64,000 bases of DNA from Pseudanabaena frigida (GTDB lineage Bacteria; Cyanobacteriota; Cyanobacteriia; Pseudanabaenales; Pseudanabaenaceae). The translations under genes were made by a program, and so were the position numbers. The stretch spans positions 62,001 through 126,000 of the forward strand of contig QBML01000001.1 in the NCBI GenBank assembly GCA_003242085.1, written 5' to 3'. Within the stretch, counting starts at the first letter, position 1. The number at the start of each line of letters is the position of its first letter. The notes below the pieces were generated by a model that was not told the DNA's origin, did not search any database, and saw nothing but the letters and a program-made list of their open reading frames with translations. This document shows positions 5,624-40,368 of this stretch, one piece after another.

Positions 5624-6202
5624 CTATTTAAAAATTAGTGTCAGCAAAATAATTGCCGAAACTACAAAAATAAAAACAAAAATAAATTGCCTTAAAAGTC
5701 TTTCAGTAGATGTAAGGGGAATTAATTCTTTTTTGAGTAATTTACATGGAATCCAGATGTTTCCATATGAATAAAATCCAGCATCTCTGACTATAGTGAA
5801 TCCCTTGTTTTTATAAAAATCTATCGATTCAAGGGATGATAAAACAAATAATATCCTTTTTCTTTGCGCTATATAAGCAATCTCTGCTTCTTTTATTAGT
5901 TTTCCACCTATACCTTTGTACCTATAATCTTGATGGACATATATTCCGTATATTCTAGTTAACTTGGAATTATTGGCAAAAGTTATAAATCCAACTATTT
6001 TATTGCTCTGCTCAGCAACTAAAATTGACTCAAAGCGGGGAAACATAGTTTTTCTAGCTTCTGCTTGAGATGTTATAAGAGAGCCAATTTGCTTCTCATT
6101 ATATTTTCTATTATTAAAATCGTTACTTAATAAAGATAAAGTTTGTAACTCAATAATTGTTTCTATTTCTTCAGGTTTAGCTAGACGGATACTAACTTCC
6201 AT
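5624..6202 (-). CDS. GNAT-family N-acetyltransferase with C-terminal membrane anchor
   Basis: A 192-residue protein. Residues 1-150 form a GNAT domain with the acetyl-CoA-binding loop QDYRYKGIGGKLI near residue 95 and a typical strand-turn IDFYKNKGF. After a basic linker, the last 20 residues (from about 171) form a single hydrophobic helix, predicting a tail-anchored cytoplasmic enzyme. The acceptor substrate is unknown. It is convergent with the anti-sigma gene, with only 8 bp between stop codons. Base composition is more AT-rich than that of its neighbours. Confidence 0.75.
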   Translation of the reverse strand: MEVSIRLAKPEEIETIIELQTLSLLSNDFNNRKYNEKQIGSLITSQAEARKTMFPRFESILVAEQSNKIVGFITFANNSKLTRIYGIYVHQDYRYKGIGGKLIKEAEIAYIAQRKRILFVLSSLESIDFYKNKGFTIVRDAGFYSYGNIWIPCKLLKKELIPLTSTERLLRQFIFVFIFVVSAIILLTLIFK

Positions 6203-6332
6203 ATTTATTTAGAACTAAGCGCAAAAAATTATATCGCAGCTTACAATTAAATCAGCTTGTCTAAATAAATTACAGAAGCTTGGCTAAATTTGTTGATTAA
6301 GCGATAGAGCTACGCATCGTTGAGTTCGTAAT

Positions 6333-6971
6333 TTATGTAGACTTGCGTGATTTAATTTGATCATCAATGCGACGTAAAACTCCGTTGATAAAGCGATATC
6401 CGTCCTCACTGCTGTAGCGTTTGGCAAGCTCTACCGCCTCATCGATCGCGACCTTGCTTGCCACACTCATAAACAACATTTCCGCAGTGGCAATTCGCAA
6501 AATATCTTTGTCTACTTGAGCAAGGCGATCGATCTGCCAATTAACCAAAGCGCTACTGATGGTTTCATCAATTTGCGATCGCTTACTATTTACGGTTTTA
6601 AGAATATCGATCGCATAGTTGCGGACTTCGGCGCGTTGTGACAGTACGAGAGTGACGGGGAAATCGAGGGCTGCGCCGATGTGATTAATTGCATTTTTAG
6701 TCAGCTCGATCGCTTCACGCACCATGCCTTCAACAGCTTGGATATCTTGGCGAATGTCACCTGTACGGGTTTCGCTAGCAGATACGCGCTCTTGACCGCG
6801 TTGTAACTCAGCGCTAGCTGTTTGTAATAATTCTTTGGTTTCATCGTGCAGCGATCGCACTACTGCCGTGACAATGTCATCTAAGGTTTTTGTTTCTAGC
6901 TTTTGAGGTTGGCTAGGTAATTGATTGATACTAAACAGTGCGAGTTCGCGGGCGATGTGGCGGGGTTGCAT
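6333..6971 (-). CDS. nusB: Transcription antitermination factor NusB
   Basis: NusB forms part of the NusB-S10 antitermination complex on rRNA operons. The C-terminal half carries the NusB fold with DRLAQVDKDILRIATAEML and VAIDEAVELAKRYSSEDGYRFINGVL motifs. I take the start at 6971 (MQPRHIARELAL), which gives 212 residues and matches the usual start of cyanobacterial NusB. The open frame continues to 7043, but that extension runs into a 35-bp palindrome (7034-7068). Cyanobacterial NusB carries an insertion of about 60 residues between helices, which is visible here. Confidence 0.9.
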   Translation of the reverse strand: MQPRHIARELALFSINQLPSQPQKLETKTLDDIVTAVVRSLHDETKELLQTASAELQRGQERVSASETRTGDIRQDIQAVEGMVREAIELTKNAINHIGAALDFPVTLVLSQRAEVRNYAIDILKTVNSKRSQIDETISSALVNWQIDRLAQVDKDILRIATAEMLFMSVASKVAIDEAVELAKRYSSEDGYRFINGVLRRIDDQIKSRKST

Positions 6972-7033
6972 AGGAGGAGATAAAATTAAGCCAATTGAAC
7001 ATCGTATCATTCTCTTTGCACGATCTTTAATCC

Positions 7034-7068
7034 CAAAGCACAAAACAGCGTGGCTGTTTTGTGCTTTG
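7034..7068. repeat. Perfect intergenic palindrome
   Basis: A 16-bp perfect stem with a 3-nt loop in the divergent region between nusB and the ferredoxin gene. It lies upstream of both starts, so it is not a terminator of either. It resembles the other long hairpins dispersed in this window. Confidence 0.7.
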
Positions 7069-21243: not shown

Positions 21244-23622
21244 ATGGATAAAAAGCAGTTTTCTGAGCGTGACATTTGTACCAAATACATCACTCCTGCT
21301 CTGGAGCGATCGGGATGGGATATTGCTACGCAGATCCGCGAAGAATTTGCATTGACTAATGGTCGTGTGCTGGTGCGGGGAAATTTACATACCCGTGCTA
21401 AAAGCAAGCGTGCTGATTATGTCCTATTCTATAAGCCGAATATTCCGATCGCCATTATTGAAGCCAAGGATAACAACCATGCTATTGGTGATGGGATGCA
21501 GCAGGGGCTAGGCTATGGCTCAATGCTCGAAGTTCCTTTTATCTTTAGCTCCAATGGCGATGGCTTTTTATTTCACAACAAAATTGCCCATGATGGCATT
21601 ATCGAACGAGAACTGAGTCTTGATGAATTTCCTTCTCCCGATCTGCTGTGGGTTTGGTGGTCAGCGCATCGAGGCATGACCGAAGCGCAAAATAGTATCA
21701 TCACGCAGGATTACTACAGCGATGGGTCTAACAAGACTCCGCGTTACTATCAACTACTGGCGATTAACAAAACGATTGAGGCGATCGCTAAGGGACAAAA
21801 TCGCCTATTACTAGTAATGGCAACGGGTACGGGTAAGACTTTTACAGCTTTTCAGATTATTTGGCGGCTTTGGAAATCGAAGACGAAGAAGCGAATTTTG
21901 TTCTTAGCCGATCGCAATATTTTGGTTGACCAAACGATGGTTAATGACTTCAAACCCTTCGGCTCAGCAATGACTAAAATCCAGAAGCGACAGGTGGATA
22001 AGTCCTATGAGATTTATTTGTCGTTGTATCAGGCAGTGACGGGAACTGAGGATATCCAGAATATTTATAAGCAATTTAGTCGTGATTTCTTTGATTTGAT
22101 TGTGATCGATGAATGTCATCGGGGCAGTGCGGCTGAGGATTCGGCATGGCGGCAAATTCTCGAATATTTTTCGTCAGCGACTCAAATCGGACTAACGGCT
22201 ACGCCAAAAGAAACCAAAGAAGTTTCTAACATTGATTATTTTGGTGAGCCGCTTTATACCTATTCACTAAGGCAAGGGATTAATGATGGCTTTCTTGCGC
22301 CCTATAAGGTGGTGCGGATTGACATTGACAAGGACTTGACGGGCTGGCGACCCGATCGGGGGATGGTCGATAAATATGGCTATGAGATTGAAGATCGGGT
22401 TTATAACCAGAAGGATTTTGATAAAAATTTGGTGTTGGAACAGCGCACTAAGTTAGTGGCTAAGAAGATTAGTGAGTTTCTAAAAGCTACTGACCGCTTT
22501 GATAAGACGATTGTGTTTTGCGAAAATATTGACCATGCGGAACGGATGCGTCAGGCATTAGTTAATGAAAATCCAGACTTGGCGGCAGATTCACGCTATG
22601 TGATGCGAATTACGGGGGATAACGATGAGGGTAAAGCTGAGCTTGACCACTTTATTTTCCCTGAGTCCAAATATCCTGTGATTGCTACGACCTCAAAGCT
22701 GATGACGACTGGTGTTGATGCTCAGACTTGTAAGTTGATTGTGTTAGATCAAAGGATTCAGTCGATGACTGAGTTTAAGCAAATCATTGGACGTGGAACT
22801 CGGATTAATGAGGATTATGGCAAGTTCTATTTCACAATTATTGATTTTAAAAAGGCGACTGAGCTATTTGCCGATCCTGATTTTGATGGCGATCCTGTAC
22901 AGATCTATGAGCCAAAGGCTGATGAATCGCCAGTGCCGCCAGATTTGCCAGAGGATGAATTTGTTTACCAAGATGAAGACATAGAAAAAGGTGAGACAAG
23001 CTTTCGAGATATAGAAAGTAATTCTCCCTATAACTTTACAGAACCGATCGCTGATTCATCAATCAGGCGCTATGTAGTGGCGAATGTCGAGGTTAAAGTG
23101 GCGGCGGAGCGAGTGCAGTATTTTGATGCGAACGGTAAGTTAATTACGGAGTCGCTCAAGGACTATACTCGCAAGGCGATCGCAAAGGATTTTGCATCCT
23201 TAGATGACTTCTTGAAATGTTGGAGCAGTGCCGATAAAAAACAGGCGATCGTTGATGAGTTGGCACAAGAGGGTATATTCTTTGAGGCTTTGGCTGATGA
23301 GATCGGTCGCGATTGCGATCCTTTTGATTTGCTCTGTCATATTGTTTGGGATATGCCGCCTTTAACTCGTAAGGAGAGAGCGGAACGGGTCAAAAAACGC
23401 AACTATTTTACGGAGTATGGCGAGCAAGCTAAACGGGTGCTAGATGCTCTCTTGGATAAATATGCTGATGAAGGAGTTGCCCAAATTGAGGAGAATCAAG
23501 TTTTGACGATCGCCCCTTTTAGTCAAATAGGAACCCCGATGGAGATTGTCCGCGCTTTTGGCGGATCAGATAATTATCAAAGGGCTGTGCGTGAGTTAAA
23601 GCGATCGCTTTATAGTGCTTAG
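21244..23622 (+). CDS. hsdR: Type I restriction enzyme, R subunit
   Basis: HsdR is the translocating and cleaving subunit of a type I restriction-modification complex. The 792-residue protein has an N-terminal PD-(D/E)xK nuclease (ADYVLF...IIEAKD, about residues 58-76), Walker A MATGTGKT at 192-199, the IDECH box at about 288-292, a GLTATPKE motif and a C-terminal helical part that binds the methylase core. This short HsdR type resembles the EcoAI/EcoEI class. hsdM starts about 320 bp downstream, with a small antisense gene between them. Confidence 0.95.
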
Positions 23623-23873
23623 AGAATCACTTGAAAATATTCTTTATTAGTCGATAGATCTGAGGGGGCTTCTAAACAGCCAACTAAATCTCCTGCTAAG
23701 TCTAAGGCACTGAGTTCTCTATCTTCTTCAATTTTATCTATCTGATTTACGGGATTTCTAATAGATTCTTGTGTGAGCAGATAAAATAGAAAGTCATTAA
23801 CAAATTTCAGGCTTTCAGGAGAAAGTGCGTCAATGTATTGTTTGGCTTGATTTCTAATCTGGATACTGTTCAT
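23619..23873 (-). CDS. Small antitoxin-like protein between hsdR and hsdM
   Basis: An 84-residue protein with a helical N-terminus ([20 protein letters not shown]) and the motif [18 protein letters not shown] near the C-terminus, which I associate with orphan antitoxin-like proteins of cyanobacteria. I start at 23873, where GGGAG precedes the ATG by about 10 nt; the open frame reaches 23903. It is on the strand opposite to the restriction genes and its stop overlaps the hsdR stop by 4 bp. No toxin is adjacent. Function unproven. Confidence 0.55.
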
Positions 23874-23940
23874 CTTTATATTCTCCCTTATGCGCTTCTG
23901 CATAGCTTTATAATCTCATAGGCATTCTAGTTAGGCAATT

Positions 23941-25410
23941 ATGGCGATCGCAACTTTAATCAAAAGTATTCAGGACATCATGCGTAAGGATGTGGGTGTC
24001 GATGGTGACGCTCAGCGTATTAGCCAGATTGTGTGGTTGTTGTTTCTGAAGATTTTTGATGATAAGGAACAGGAGTGGGAATTTACGATTTCTAGCTATA
24101 AATCACCATTGCCTGAGCGGTTGCGGTGGTCTAACTGGGCAAAGAATCCTGAAGGGATAACGGGGGAAGAGTTACTGGATTTTGTGAACAATGAGCTTTT
24201 TCCTGAGTTGAAAAGGTTGGCGACGGCTGCTGGTGTGTCCCCACATGGAAGGGTTGTGGGTGCGGTGTTTGAGGATGCCTATAACTATATGAAGTCGGGA
24301 ACTTTGTTGCGGCAGGTGATTAACTGCATTCAGAGTGATGTGGACTTTAACTCATCGGGCGATCGCCATTTGTTTAATGACATCTACGAAAAGATTCTGG
24401 CGGATCTGCAATCGGCGGGAAATGCGGGGGAATATTACACGCCTCGCGCTGTGACACAGTTTATGGTGGATATTCTCGATCCGAAGTTGGGTGAAAAGTT
24501 GCTTGACCCTGCCTGTGGTACGGCGGGATTTTTGGTGAATGCGATCGAGCATCTCAAGTCGCAGGCAAAGACGGCTGAGGATTTACAAAACTTGCAAAAA
24601 AATATCAATGGGGTAGAGAAAAAGCCTTTGCCGCATATGTTGGCGATGACGAATGTGATGTTGCATGGGATTGATGTGCCGACGAATATTCGCCATGACA
24701 ATACTTTGAAGCGCCCATTACGGGACTACACACCCAAGGATCGGGTGGATATTGTGATTACCAATCCGCCATTTGGAGGCATGGAGGAGGATGGCATTGA
24801 GGGCAATTTCCCCAAGAAGTACCAGACTCGCGAGACTGCCGATCTGTTTATGGCTTTGATTATGCATTTACTCAAACCTGAGACGGGACGGGCGGCAGTG
24901 GTGTTGCCCGATGGTTTCCTGTTTGGTGAGGGGACAAAAACGAATCTCAAGCGGGAATTGCTAGAGGAGTTTAATCTACATACGATTGTGCGTTTACCCA
25001 AGGGCGTATTTAGTCCCTATACGGGCATTAATACGAATATTCTCTTTTTTGAAAAAGGTGAGCCGACTAAGGATATCTGGTTTTTTGCACATCCCTATCC
25101 AGAGGGTTACAAGTCCTATTCACGGTCGAAGCCGCTCACAATTGGGGAGTTCGATCGCGAAAAGAGTTGGTGGGGTGGCAAGTCACGCAAGGGGCGCAAG
25201 GTGAATGAATATGCGTGGAAGGTGTCGGTTGCCGAGATTGCGGCGCGTAATTATAATCTCGATTGCAAAAATCCCCATGAGGTGATGGTCAATCATGGGG
25301 AGCCTGATGAGTTGATGGCGGAATATTTGGCAATTGCTCAACAAATGAAGGCAGCACAGGATGCGCTAAAGCAAGAACTGGTAAATGCTTTGCAGCGTGG
25401 GGGCAGTTAA
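23941..25410 (+). CDS. hsdM: Type I restriction enzyme, M subunit (N6-adenine methylase)
   Basis: HsdM is the adenine methyltransferase of the type I complex. The 489-residue protein has the helical N-terminal domain (to about 150), GEYYTPRAVTQFMV, the AdoMet motif DPACGTAG at 189-196 and the catalytic NPPF at 275-278. The stop overlaps the next start (TAATG at 25408-25412), so translation is coupled to the AlbA-type ATPase gene. Confidence 0.96.
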   Translation: MAIATLIKSIQDIMRKDVGVDGDAQRISQIVWLLFLKIFDDKEQEWEFTISSYKSPLPERLRWSNWAKNPEGITGEELLDFVNNELFPELKRLATAAGVSPHGRVVGAVFEDAYNYMKSGTLLRQVINCIQSDVDFNSSGDRHLFNDIYEKILADLQSAGNAGEYYTPRAVTQFMVDILDPKLGEKLLDPACGTAGFLVNAIEHLKSQAKTAEDLQNLQKNINGVEKKPLPHMLAMTNVMLHGIDVPTNIRHDNTLKRPLRDYTPKDRVDIVITNPPFGGMEEDGIEGNFPKKYQTRETADLFMALIMHLLKPETGRAAVVLPDGFLFGEGTKTNLKRELLEEFNLHTIVRLPKGVFSPYTGINTNILFFEKGEPTKDIWFFAHPYPEGYKSYSRSKPLTIGEFDREKSWWGGKSRKGRKVNEYAWKVSVAEIAARNYNLDCKNPHEVMVNHGEPDELMAEYLAIAQQMKAAQDALKQELVNALQRGGS

Positions 25411-26729
25411 TGGAATCAAATCGAGTTGAGTATAAGCGCGAACTAACCGATGGTTTTGAGCGAGAGGCGATCGCCTTTTTAAATTATCGAGATGGCGGCG
25501 TTATTTACATCGGCATTGATAAAGATGGCTCGGTGGTGGGTGTTGCTGATTGCGACGCGGTACAACTGGCGATTAAGGATCGTTTGAAAAATAATATTTT
25601 GCCGTCCTGTTTGGGACTATTTGATGTAATTCATGAAGTCCGTGAGGATCGGGACATTATCAAGGTGACTCTGGCTAGTGGCTCAGAGAAGCCCTATTAC
25701 TTGCGAAAGTATGGAATGTCTGAGAAGGGTTGTTTTGTCAGGATCGGTAGTGCTTCGGAACCGATGTCAGGACGGATGATTGAGGATCTGTTTGCGAGGC
25801 GGACTCGTAACTCACTCGGACGGATGCGATCGCCACAGCAAAGCCTTAATTTTGAGCAGTTACGGATTTATTACGAGGAAGCTGGGTTTACGCTAGGCGA
25901 TCGCTTTGCGGCGAATTTGGAACTGTTAACTGAGGATGGGGCTTATAACTATGCTGCCTATTTGCTGAGCGATCGCAATGGTAATTCGGTTCAGGTGGCG
26001 AAGTATCGAGGTTTGGATCGCTATGATTTGATTGATAGTAATGAGTATGGGTACTGCTCTCTGGTTAAGACTTGTAAGCAGGTGCTAGATCGCCTAGAGG
26101 TGGAAAATCGCACGGCGACAAGGATTACATCTAAGGAAAGAATCGAGCGGCGGCTATGGGATACGGTGGCGCTACGGGAGGCGGTAATCAATGCGATTAT
26201 TCACAATGATTTTACTAATGAGGCTGTGCCTAAGTTTGAGATTTTTGACGATCGCTTAGAAATTACATCTGCGGGTTCGATTCCTGAAGGGGTGGCGCGT
26301 GAGGAATTTTTTGCTGGCTATTCGATTCCGCGCAATAAGATTTTGATGCGGGTGTTTAAGGATTTGCACATTGTCGAATATCTGGGTTCGGGGATGCCGC
26401 GCATTTTGCGGGTTTATCCGAGGGAGTCTTTTATTTTTACGGCTAATTTTATTCGCACGGTGTTTCCAATTTCACAGGAGGCGCTGGCGCTAGAGCAAAA
26501 AACGACGGTAAAAACGCTGGTAGAAACGCAGGGTAAAACTCCTGACAAGATTCTCCAAATCCTGAGAGCTAATCCTAAGTTAACTTTGGCTGAGGTGGCT
26601 GAGGCGATCGCAAAGTCTCTCAGTGCTGTGGAACGTGCTAGCAGTAAGTTGGTTAAGGCTGGCAAGTTAAAGAGGGTTGGCTCACCGAAAGGGGGATATT
26701 GGCAAGTTTTGGAGGATGGAAATGAGTAG
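25410..26729 (+). CDS. AlbA_2/Schlafen-like DNA-binding protein with ATPase-like domain and winged helix
   Basis: A 439-residue protein inserted between hsdM and hsdS. Residues 1-120 resemble an AlbA_2 (Schlafen AAA_4) domain (ESNRVEYKREL and AFLNYRDGGVIYIGID). Residues about 240-350 resemble a GHKL-type ATPase of the RecG-like family (LREAVINAIIHNDF and FDDRLEITSAGSIPEG). The C-terminus (about 370-435) is a winged helix (ANPKLTLAEVAEAIAKSLS). Such proteins are annotated as transcriptional regulators or RecG-like. It is coupled to hsdM by TAATG and overlaps hsdS by 8 bp, so it is produced with the modification subunits. Role in restriction unknown. Confidence 0.85.
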   Translation: MESNRVEYKRELTDGFEREAIAFLNYRDGGVIYIGIDKDGSVVGVADCDAVQLAIKDRLKNNILPSCLGLFDVIHEVREDRDIIKVTLASGSEKPYYLRKYGMSEKGCFVRIGSASEPMSGRMIEDLFARRTRNSLGRMRSPQQSLNFEQLRIYYEEAGFTLGDRFAANLELLTEDGAYNYAAYLLSDRNGNSVQVAKYRGLDRYDLIDSNEYGYCSLVKTCKQVLDRLEVENRTATRITSKERIERRLWDTVALREAVINAIIHNDFTNEAVPKFEIFDDRLEITSAGSIPEGVAREEFFAGYSIPRNKILMRVFKDLHIVEYLGSGMPRILRVYPRESFIFTANFIRTVFPISQEALALEQKTTVKTLVETQGKTPDKILQILRANPKLTLAEVAEAIAKSLSAVERASSKLVKAGKLKRVGSPKGGYWQVLEDGNE

Positions 26730-28425
26730 AAATATGGACACAGCGACACTTTTAGAAAAATATTTTGATGTTGCTTTTGCTGCACCTGATGGGATTAAGA
26801 AGCTCCGCGAGTTGATTTTGTCTTTGGCGATGCAGGGGAAGTTAGTGCCACAAGATGAGGCTGATCAGCCTGCGAGTGAGTTGTTAAAGGAGATTGCGGC
26901 GGAGAAAAGTCGGTTGGTGAAGGATGGCAAGATTAAGGCTTCTAAGCCTTTGTCTGAGATTAAGCCTGATGAGGTTCCTTATGATTTGCCGAATGGTTGG
27001 GAGTGGGTGAGATTAGGAGATCTAGGAGAAGCCCAAACGGGCGCAACTCCATCTACAAAAGATATTGAAAATTTTGGTGATTTTATTCCATTTATTGGAC
27101 CAGGTGATATCAAGAACTACAAGATTGATTACTCTGGTCAGGGATTATCTGAGATAGGAGTTAATAAAGGTCGCTTAATTCAAAAAAATTCAATTCTAAT
27201 GGTTTGTATAGGTGGAAGTATTGGGAAACACGCAATAAACGATAGAGATCTTACCTGCAATCAACAGATTAATACTATTACTCCCTACAACTACGAATTT
27301 ACAAAATACATATTTTTCGCGATGGGAGAAAAATTTTTTCAAACGATGGTTATTAACCAATCTAGCGGTTCTGCAACACCAATAATCAATAAGCAGAAAT
27401 GGTCATCGATTCTTACTCCACTTCCACCACTTGCAGAACAACGCCGAATTGTTGCCAAGATTGATGAATTAATGGTGCGATGTGATGAACTGGAAAAGCT
27501 AAAAAATGAACGCAATCAAAAACAAATCACCCTCCACAAATCTGCCCTAAATCGCTTATTAACTGCCAAAGATCACAGCGATTTCCAAACCTCATGGCAT
27601 TTCATCACCCAACATTTCGGCGAACTTTATTCGGTTAAAGAAAATGTGGCGGAACTACGCAAAGCTATACTCCAACTTGCTGTGATGGGTAAGCTAGTCC
27701 CTCAAGATCCTAGCGATCAGCCTGCTAGTGAATTGTTAAAGGAAATTGAAAAAGAGAAACAAAAACTAATCAAAGAAGGAAAAATCAAAGATTCTAGACC
27801 CTTGCCAGAAATTAAATCTAATGAGATTCCCTACGATTTACCAAAGGGTTGGGAGTGGGTCAGACTACAGGAGGTATTAGATGTTCGAGATGGCACACAT
27901 GATTCTCCTAAAGATGCCATAGAAGGTGAAAGATACCCACTAATAACAAGCAAAAACTTTACTAACGGCAAAATTGATTTTTCAAATGCAAGACAAATAT
28001 CTGCTAAAGATTATTTTGAGATTTCAAAACGCTCCAAAGTAGATAGATTAGATATTCTATTTTCAATGATTGGTGGAAATATAGGTAATCAAGTTTTAGT
28101 TCAAGATGAATGTGAATTTAGCATTAAAAATGTTGCTTTATTCAAATATTACAATAGAGAGCTTACATACCCTTATTTTTTTAAAAGATATATGGAACAA
28201 ATAGCTATTTATCTACAACAAAAAGCTACTGGAGGAGCGCAGCCATTTGTATCTTTAGGGTTCTTAAGAAACTTAGTCATGGCACTTCCTCCCATCACTG
28301 AACAACATCGCATTGTTGCCAAAATCGATCAACTCATGACCCTTTGCGACGAGCTAGAAAAACAAATTGACGCAGCAGATAGCAAACAGACCAATCTGCT
28401 TAACTCCATGATGGCAAAGGTTTAG
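26722..28425 (+). CDS. hsdS: Type I restriction enzyme, S (specificity) subunit
   Basis: HsdS recognises the split DNA target. The 567-residue protein has two target-recognition domains, each preceded by the same module of about 65 residues (GKLVPQD..DQPASELLKEI and IPYDLP.GWEWVRL) and each followed by a spacer starting LPP..EQ.RIVAKID. Both recognition domains are more AT-rich than the repeat modules, as expected for swapped cassettes. GGAGG ends 6 nt before ATG 26722, so I choose this start over upstream in-frame ones. The 3' end is duplicated at 28740-28843. Confidence 0.94.
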   Translation: MSRNMDTATLLEKYFDVAFAAPDGIKKLRELILSLAMQGKLVPQDEADQPASELLKEIAAEKSRLVKDGKIKASKPLSEIKPDEVPYDLPNGWEWVRLGDLGEAQTGATPSTKDIENFGDFIPFIGPGDIKNYKIDYSGQGLSEIGVNKGRLIQKNSILMVCIGGSIGKHAINDRDLTCNQQINTITPYNYEFTKYIFFAMGEKFFQTMVINQSSGSATPIINKQKWSSILTPLPPLAEQRRIVAKIDELMVRCDELEKLKNERNQKQITLHKSALNRLLTAKDHSDFQTSWHFITQHFGELYSVKENVAELRKAILQLAVMGKLVPQDPSDQPASELLKEIEKEKQKLIKEGKIKDSRPLPEIKSNEIPYDLPKGWEWVRLQEVLDVRDGTHDSPKDAIEGERYPLITSKNFTNGKIDFSNARQISAKDYFEISKRSKVDRLDILFSMIGGNIGNQVLVQDECEFSIKNVALFKYYNRELTYPYFFKRYMEQIAIYLQQKATGGAQPFVSLGFLRNLVMALPPITEQHRIVAKIDQLMTLCDELEKQIDAADSKQTNLLNSMMAKV

Positions 28426-28739: not shown

Positions 28740-28843
28740 GAAATCGATAAACTGAATACCCATTGCAACGAGCTAGAAAAACAAATTGAGGCAGCAGAGA
28801 GCAAACAGACCAACCTGCTTAACTCGGTGATGACAAAGGTTTA
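28740..28843 (+). repeat. Duplicated 3' end of hsdS
   Basis: About 104 bp closely matching 28322-28425, ending in the same AAAGGTTTA stop context. It encodes the last hsdS residues (LEKQIEAAESKQTNLLNSV) but has no start. It records a second hsdS copy or a duplication around the TA remnant. Confidence 0.85.
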
Positions 28844-28879
28844 AACAGCTATATTTGTAAGAAACATCGCAGAAAACCT

Positions 28880-39706: not shown

Positions 39707-39979
39707 ATGCTACCAATAACAACTTTTCAAAATATCGAAAAAAGCTTAAAGCAACTACCTGATTCTTTGCAAATTGAGGTACTGCATTATATTGAATTTC
39801 TCAAGAGTAAATATGTAAAGCAAATTGATAGTAAAAATCAATCTCTTGATCGAGCCAGTATAGAAACTCTAGAATATAAAAAAGTCAAAAAGCGTGATGG
39901 CTTTGGCATTTGGCAGGGTCAAATAACAATGTCAGAAGATTTTGATGCGCCAATGGAAGAATTTGAGGAGTATATGTAA
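39707..39979 (+). CDS. DUF2281-like antitoxin
   Basis: A 90-residue protein beginning ITTFQNIEKSLKQLPDSLQ with VLHYIEFLKSKY, the pattern of DUF2281 antitoxins, and a C-terminal GFGIWQGQITMSEDFDAPME, typical of antitoxins paired with PIN toxins. The stop is 2 bp before the PIN gene start. Confidence 0.82.
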   Translation: MLPITTFQNIEKSLKQLPDSLQIEVLHYIEFLKSKYVKQIDSKNQSLDRASIETLEYKKVKKRDGFGIWQGQITMSEDFDAPMEEFEEYM

Positions 39980-39981
39980 AT

Positions 39982-40368
39982 ATGGATGTACTGTTAGATA
40001 CACATGCATTCATTTGGTATATCGAAGGCAACACAAGCCTGACACAAAAAGCTAGAGAGACCATTGAATTTTCTGCGGATAATGTCTATTTGAGTATCAT
40101 TAGCCTTTGGGAAATTGCAATTAAAACTGGCAAAAACAAGCTTACTATGCAAAATGAATATGATGATTTGTTAGATGTTCTAAATTCATTGAATATTGAG
40201 ATTTTACCAATTACCTTTGCCGACACGCAAATCTATAAAAATCTTCCTTTGCATCATGGCGATCCATTTGATCGCATGATCATTTCTCAAGCAATAAATA
40301 ACAATTTAACGATTATCGGCTGCGATCGCGCTTTTAATGATTATTCGGTGCAAATGTTGTGGTCATAA
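39982..40368 (+). CDS. PIN-domain toxin (VapC-like)
   Basis: A predicted RNase toxin of 128 residues. Acidic catalytic residues are visible in LLDTHAFIWY (D6), SLWEIAIKT (E44), and the C-terminal GDPFDRMIISQA and CDRAFNDY. It forms a type II TA operon with the preceding DUF2281-like gene. Confidence 0.88.
   Translation: MDVLLDTHAFIWYIEGNTSLTQKARETIEFSADNVYLSIISLWEIAIKTGKNKLTMQNEYDDLLDVLNSLNIEILPITFADTQIYKNLPLHHGDPFDRMIISQAINNNLTIIGCDRAFNDYSVQMLWS

Follow-up and report, generated by a model that had tools for sequence, protein, structure and literature searches.

A three-domain gene between hsdM and hsdS

We analysed a 64,000-nucleotide stretch of the Pseudanabaena frigida genome (the window; contig QBML01000001.1, positions 62,001 to 126,000 of the forward strand), in which a gene here called X, as is its product, lies within a type I restriction-modification (R-M) operon of gene order hsdR-hsdM-X-hsdS (Table 1). 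HsdR, HsdM and HsdS are all present with open reading frames (ORFs), and the operon belongs to the EcoAI/FtnUII family; HsdR has Pfam matches to ResIII, EcoEI_R_C and HSDR_N and contains the strings EAK, GTGKT and DECH. The stop codon of hsdM (TAA, 25408-25410) and the start codon of X (ATG, 25410) overlap by 1 bp as TAATG, and the X stop codon (26727-26729) overlaps the hsdS start by 8 bp. A GGAGG within the last X codons sits at the position expected of an hsdS ribosome-binding site (read by eye). An earlier reading of this DNA, made from the sequence only, had described X as coupled to both neighbours in one operon unit, and both junctions can be read as it stated. X is the sole match within its own genome at E ≤ 0.001.

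The Pfam matches of X to SLFN_AlbA_2, HATPase_c_4 and HTH_24 (residues 380-420, E 6e-8) all exceed the curated cut-offs, which bears out the combination of an AlbA_2-like domain, a GHKL-like ATPase and a winged helix named by the sequence-only reading. Its additional label, RecG-like, reproduces the Pfam wording for HATPase_c_4 and was dropped. RecG is defined by helicase domains, and we rejected X as a RecG helicase, as the Pfam scan gives HATPase_c_4 and no helicase domain. The conserved GHKL residues E257, N261 and H265 lie just upstream of the HATPase_c_4 stretch. With the catalytic carboxylates E2, E7 and D37, the GHKL domain and a winged helix-turn-helix (wHTH) all present, X has the Schlafen-GHKL-wHTH architecture.

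Table 1. Features of the type I operon and of gene X (positions in the window).
Feature	Position	Strand	Details
hsdR, EcoAI/FtnUII-family restriction subunit, 792 amino acids (aa)	21244..23622	+	NF046051 1217.8 bits (cut-off 550)
Lone antitoxin-like ORF between hsdR and hsdM	23619..23903	-	own Pfam match sub-threshold only
hsdM, 489 aa	23941..25410	+	Pfam HsdM_N, N6_Mtase; strings NPPF, DPACGT
Gene X (Schlafen/AlbA_2 - GHKL - winged helix), intact, 439 aa	25410..26729	+	
SLFN_AlbA_2 (Schlafen) domain, residues 2-120	25413..25769	+	Pfam E 1.7e-15; E2 (25413), E7 (25428), D37 (25518)
HATPase_c_4/GHKL stretch, residues 275-337	26232..26420	+	Pfam E 8.7e-15; G326 and G328 inside
Exchanged block: linker and winged helix (HTH_24)	26495..26719	+	Fic-like_C winged helix and Uma2 gene here in L010
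X-hsdS junction	26711..26729	+	GGAGG (26711-26715), ATG 26722, X stop TAG
hsdS, 567 aa, two target-recognition domains	26722..28425	+	Methylase_S in two stretches; PDLC03179 520 bits
Short second copy of hsdS 3' end, outside any gene now	28741..28845	+	frame 2; matches hsdS ends of L010 (88.6%) and L011

The Schlafen domain resembles the catalytic lobe of SLFN11 and SLFN13

An AlphaFold2 model of X from 47 relatives reached a mean predicted local distance difference test (pLDDT) score of 80.4 and a predicted template modelling (pTM) score of 0.52; the individual domains appear good and their relative arrangement is unsure. In structure comparison, residues 1-104 match the catalytic (second) lobes of SLFN13 (5yd0 204-325, Z 9.2) and SLFN11 (7zep 208-328, Z 9.2), residues 1-133/135 are covered by 7fex (SLFN11, Z 9.9) and the SAMD9 tRNase domain 9o0d (Z 10.1), and residues 375-438 match MarR and Z-alpha winged helices. 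Sequence identity to the mammalian SLFN and SAMD9 structures is low (15-20% in the structure-comparison rows). A profile built from X relatives retrieves pig SLFN11 (E 5.5e-4), aligning E2 and E7 with the two Glu of its ESQSIEFK and D37 with the Asp of GVD. The Glu-to-Asp spacing is 38 in both pig SLFN11 and SLFN13 (manual count), and E2, E7 and D37 are by spacing the predicted counterparts of SLFN13 Glu205, Glu210 and Asp248. In SLFN13, E205A and E210A were inactive in tRNA cleavage and D248A was weakened (PMC5862951).

We aligned 85 rows including the window, excluding rows shorter than 380 aa (such as L035). Wherever a row has a residue at the position, E2 and E7 are present (83/83 rows), as is K9 (84/84), and the GHKL residues E257, N261, H265, G326 and G328 occur in 85/85 rows. 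Mean column identity per 20-residue block is 0.71-0.86 up to residue 340 and falls to 0.40-0.54 beyond 360, showing that the conserved part of X is the Schlafen-GHKL core and not the DNA-binding head.

The winged helix is exchanged while the core is constrained

The HsdR and HsdM proteins of Pseudanabaena sp. SR411 (L010) are 97% identical to those of the window, and the two sequences align gap-free between 23632 and 26494 at 92.6%; the alignment stops in X codon 362 and resumes at hsdS. The X cores are 99% identical and the tails have no BLAST match. The same is true of L011, where the core is 94% identical to that of the window. The tail is of the HTH_24 type in the window and L012 and of the Fic-like_C type in L010 and L011. 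Among 47 relatives HTH_24 is matched by 35 and Fic-like_C by 9, and a 583-aa X relative (L084:2171-3922) has HTH_24 and Fic-like_C winged helices in tandem. The operon is also carried by plasmid pPg_02 of Pseudanabaena galeata (L192), whose winged helix differs from that of L010 in its front half and has the same tail. An assembly error behind the exchange is unlikely, given that the other tail type is found in three separate records (L010, L011 and the plasmid).

L011 (ATG 9394), L012, L015 and L016 likewise show the 8-bp X-hsdS overlap together with the start codon, and in L011 the junction is preserved despite a winged helix unlike that of the window. The overlap is not universal, as additional genes stand between X and hsdS in L010 (Uma2) and on the plasmid. 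There (L192:3299-12526) these are a Uma2 endonuclease and a PHD/YoeB pair, hsdS is split by an IS4 transposase, and an IS1380 element lies between hsdR and a PIN gene. Across the hsdM start, 94/101 bases are identical between the window and L010. Similarity between the two begins only 25 bp upstream of hsdR, so the hsdR promoters lie outside the comparison.

We calculated the ratio of nonsynonymous to synonymous substitution rates (dN/dS) over 355 codons of the X core. Against L010 it was 0.012, compared with 0.041 for hsdM, 0.043 for hsdR and 0.55 for hsdS. The core was again lowest against L011 (X 0.057, R 0.063, M 0.093, S 0.43) and L012 (X 0.055, R 0.062, M 0.085, S 0.29). No other part of the operon is as constrained as the X core, whose value of 0.012, below those of hsdR and hsdM, indicates that the arrangement is more than chance.

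X recurs in unrelated type I operons

A scan of GTDB genomes returned 366 relatives of X, and genomic context was taken from the best 80. X was called linked when a type I gene lay on the same strand within 200 bp (≤200 bp), which was the case for 25/80 (L010-L012, L015, L016, L018, L019, L022-L033, L035, L038, L039, L041, L043 and L084). This count includes L043 and L038, where the linked gene is a 100-aa hsdM fragment, and leaves out L066 (26 with it), whose match to R is a PLD/SNF2 helicase; X there lies between the PLD-helicase gene and an Eco57I-type methyltransferase. Loci on short contigs (e.g. L013, L014, L020, L021) were scored unlinked though a neighbour may lie past the contig end.

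Several gene orders were found (R, M and S for the hsd genes). R-M-X-S occurs in Pseudanabaena sp. SR411, Phormidium tenue FACHB-1050, a cyanobacterial metagenome-assembled genome, Chlorobiaceae and Gallionella. The sequence-only reading had made the case for X depend on this arrangement extending beyond close relatives, and it does: M-X-S is seen in cyanobacteria (L010, L011, L012), Chlorobiaceae (L015) and Gallionella (L018), as well as in L016, whose contig begins inside hsdM. Ten Chlorobiaceae loci have R-X-M (in L025, L027 and L030 the contig stops before hsdM), M-X-S-R is found in L024 (Desulfamplus), and single loci show X-S-X followed by hsdR (L019), R-M-S-X (L035) and X before hsdR (L041).

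The X core does not follow the HsdM that it accompanies. The HsdM proteins of the R-X-M and M-X-S-R operons are 19-28% identical to that of the window, and among L018, L022 and L024 the X core is 81-83% identical while HsdM is 18-28% identical. L159 is another M-X-S-R operon, in which X is 64% identical, HsdM is 28% identical to that of the window over 260 aa, and the overlap is 4 bp. We built a tree of 90 X cores (far relatives L005-L009 removed where present), in which, opposite to the 25/80 count, L066 was classed as linked and L038 and L043 as unlinked. It requires 8 changes of linkage, at least 6 of them forced by starred branches, and it splits the R-M-X-S rows with 3 changes, all forced by starred branches. 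The linkage changes indicate that X entered or left type I operons repeatedly, with no direction implied. We rejected strict co-evolution of M, X and S, since the R-M-X-S rows are split in the tree and X core identity does not track HsdM identity.

We also counted places at E ≤ 1e-60 in samples of four phyla, with the whole protein as query for the window's phylum and the 355-residue core for the others. The window's phylum had 4 places in 292 genomes (1 linked), the phylum of L032 had 2 in 395 (2 linked), that of L018 had 5 in 398 (1 linked) and that of L042 had 25 in 395 (16 directly beside R or M, 1 some 2 kb from M and 8 unlinked). Together 20/36 places are directly linked, 15 of these of the R-X-M type seen in Chlorobiaceae; many genomes of the L042 phylum are also in the 80-locus set, and the two linkage counts are not independent. 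In the window's phylum, hsdM occurs at 55 places in 50/292 genomes, and among the 30 places read (1.5-kb flanks where the contig allows) X was found only at that of the window. We therefore rejected X as a common component of type I operons in this phylum (1/30 hsdM places read). No relative of the window's X protein was found in viral contigs (4 pattern matches, 0 confirmed). Away from type I operons, X relatives adjoin GmrSD, PHP-ATPase or HNH genes.

Other genes at this operon position and nearby features

Other ORFs occupy the same site in related loci. In the window's phylum, an ORF of 260-298 aa lies between hsdM and hsdS at L104:2933-3715 (+), L106:2945-3727 (+) and L107:543-1439 (-); all three have a hydrophobic start by eye, and the Pfam scan of the L104 copy gave nothing at E 0.01. 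At L092:2983-4320, small ORFs that look toxin-antitoxin-like by eye lie directly 3' of a close hsdM relative, at the X/hsdS position. In Prevotella sp. oral taxon 299 (L193, match 6001-7068) an X relative is followed by a 1172-aa ORF matching HsdM and HsdS profiles. A far X relative of the window's phylum (L007:1492-2913, -; 29% identical) lies between hsdR-like and hsdM-like genes.

The antitoxin-like ORF between hsdR and hsdM is adjoined by a PIN gene in L010 and on the P. galeata plasmid and not in the window. Elsewhere in the window, a small ORF is followed by a PIN-domain gene in a VapBC-like arrangement (39707-40368). The copy of the hsdS end downstream of hsdS (Table 1) is a trace of an hsdS duplication or recombination.

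A putative Schlafen-type effector inside the restriction operon

These observations suggest a second anti-phage defence line built into the restriction system. On balance, X is probably a Schlafen-type endoribonuclease, silenced by its GHKL domain and winged helix, that acts as a second-line effector of the type I operon through abortive infection or growth arrest; we infer both its RNase activity and its coupling to restriction. The GHKL ATP-binding domain and the winged helix would keep the Schlafen RNase off. Blocked restriction or the presence of phage DNA (free ends, single strands, or an anti-restriction protein on the HsdMS complex) would be sensed by the winged helix/GHKL part, releasing an RNase predicted to cut tRNA, as PrrC does in EcoprrI, by an unrelated enzyme. 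Co-expression with hsdM and hsdS would scale the dose of effector to methyltransferase levels. The exchange pattern, in which the head changes while the Schlafen-GHKL core stays, suits an effector core whose trigger is replaceable. A narrower proposal, which we regard as possible if doubtful, is that X is a guard of restriction, silent while the type I complex works and freed by phage anti-restriction proteins or unrestricted DNA. The winged helix would then be a trigger-reading head swapped between strains like a cartridge (HTH_24 for Fic-like_C), as hsdS target domains are, and one conserved killer core would be fitted to different triggers in at least 3 type I families whose HsdM proteins are less than 30% alike.

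Several results weigh against an effector of the restriction operon. The third carboxylate varies: position 37 is D in 66/85 rows, N in 11, E in 3 and G in 3, D37 is kept in 14 of the 23 R-M-linked rows, and the restriction-operon relatives L015, L018 and L024 carry N or G there. X has one Schlafen lobe and the tRNA valley of SLFN13 is formed by two, so that a dimer of X would be needed, and PADLOC 2.0.0 matches to X are weak and partial only. For 55/80 loci the flanking 200 bp yielded no type I gene (some contigs end early), in the window's phylum relatives at E ≤ 1e-20 are present in only 8/292 genomes, with hsd-operon placement seen for the window and L007, and some X relatives adjoin ordinary genes (MnmE, IPP transferase, alpha-amylase). 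X can thus persist without restriction, and because of the 55 loci it may be a free-standing defence gene with the operon as its vehicle.

Taken further, this would make X an independent defence gene in a tolerant operon slot, functionally unlinked to restriction, which we consider unlikely. The many loci without a type I gene nearby, the company of GmrSD, PHP-ATPase or HNH genes, the association of one core with type I systems of dissimilar HsdM (18-28% alike) and the 8 linkage changes in the tree all favour it, as do the PIN, Uma2 and YoeB genes that relatives of the operon also house. The junctions argue the other way: the 8-bp overlap with hsdS recurs in L011, L012, L015 and L016, it is kept in L011 with a different winged helix, and in L159 a 4-bp overlap accompanies a different HsdM. 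That X instead assists the HsdMS complex as an accessory subunit or chaperone, as its overlap with both partner genes might suggest, is highly improbable given the pairing of nearly the same core (81-83%) with HsdM proteins only 18-28% alike and the occurrence of X at loci where no hsd gene was found.

It also seems improbable that X regulates the hsd operon, binding DNA through its winged helix and using an ATP switch to delay or tune restriction. This was one of two roles offered by the sequence-only reading, and the C-terminal winged helix is indeed MarR/HTH_24-like. We take X to belong to COG2865. A list of transcriptional regulators of Histophilus somni includes a COG2865 member (PMC3339403), and regulators of type I operons exist, such as RptR, which represses a type I operon of enteropathogenic Escherichia coli (EPEC; PMC12255303). 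The kinase-repressor pair CapK/CapS is described beside immune operons, and in 88/443 cases it directly follows an R-M system (PMC13373217). However, the position of X is within the operon and not ahead of it, and conservation sits in the Schlafen-GHKL core and not in the DNA-binding head. The L010 winged helix comes from another family, yet the bases around the hsdM start are nearly unchanged (94/101), which weakens the regulator reading, since in a protein that controls its own operon the head is expected to stay matched to the operator. An embedded effector whose trigger can be swapped accounts for the exchange better than a regulator of the operon does. A regulator that delays restriction found no direct support, and the other role offered, an added defence component, is favoured by the conserved carboxylates, by the architecture shared with BREX-linked RNases and by the recurrence of the core with unrelated type I systems.

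Comparison with known systems

Among the literature matches listed, none was seen to concern a Schlafen gene at the hsdM-hsdS junction. The same architecture, a Schlafen RNase with a minimal histidine kinase and a wHTH, is associated in at least 1017 taxa with core loci of BREX and related systems, and PMC12839542 reads BREX-linked endoRNases as backup suicidal effectors and their fused DNA-binding domains as possible sensors. X shares with these the three-part architecture and a methyltransferase-based defence operon. Its host differs, being an EcoAI-family type I operon with X at the hsdM-hsdS junction; the flanking genes are hsdR, hsdM and hsdS, and not a BREX or BREX-related core locus. 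The winged-helix exchange seen for X is not mentioned in section 35 of that paper (PMC12839542).

Other defence modules, of different protein families, are embedded in type I operons: the GmrSD-like TgvAB (PMC11411939) and DarTG2, between hsdS and hsdR (PMC12255303). Controller-type regulators of R-M systems such as RptR are small helix-turn-helix proteins ahead of the operon; X, with its 439 aa, lies inside. CapK, likened to anti-sigma-factor kinases and activated by single-stranded DNA (PMC13373217), is a precedent for a kinase sensing such DNA near immune operons. COG2865 is labelled in PIN-GNAT-EVE neighbourhoods, some close to hsdR/M/S operons, in PMC7641849, which calls it RecG-like and not Schlafen.

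In structure, DIP2311 of Corynebacterium diphtheriae (3LMM, deposited as uncharacterised) matches most of X (Z 20.6, 313 residues), with 17% identity and a root-mean-square deviation of 14.9 that reflects a different placement of the domains. The mammalian SLFN11, SLFN13 and SAMD9 tRNase domains have the catalytic-lobe fold and the carboxylate positions in common with X, which differs in combining one lobe with GHKL and a winged helix. The Schlafen family fights viruses in mammals. If our reading is right, the natural occurrence of near-identical operons whose main differences lie in the winged helix and hsdS would make the triggering of bacterial Schlafens testable, and a gene annotated only as 'RNA-binding domain-containing protein' on the P. 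galeata plasmid would gain an R-M context.

A functional parallel to the proposed role would be PrrC. PrrC and RloC combine an ABC-ATPase with a HEPN nuclease, and the Pfam scan of X up to E 0.1 gave no ABC or HEPN match. The PrrC anticodon nuclease is embedded in EcoprrI and activated upon inhibition of restriction (PMC12707154); like the proposed X, it is an RNA-cutting effector that a type I operon carries and that responds to blocked restriction, and the two proteins are unrelated, X being of the Schlafen/GHKL/winged-helix type. If this holds, the strategy of an RNA-cutting guard in a type I operon would have been reached a second time, by a Schlafen enzyme.

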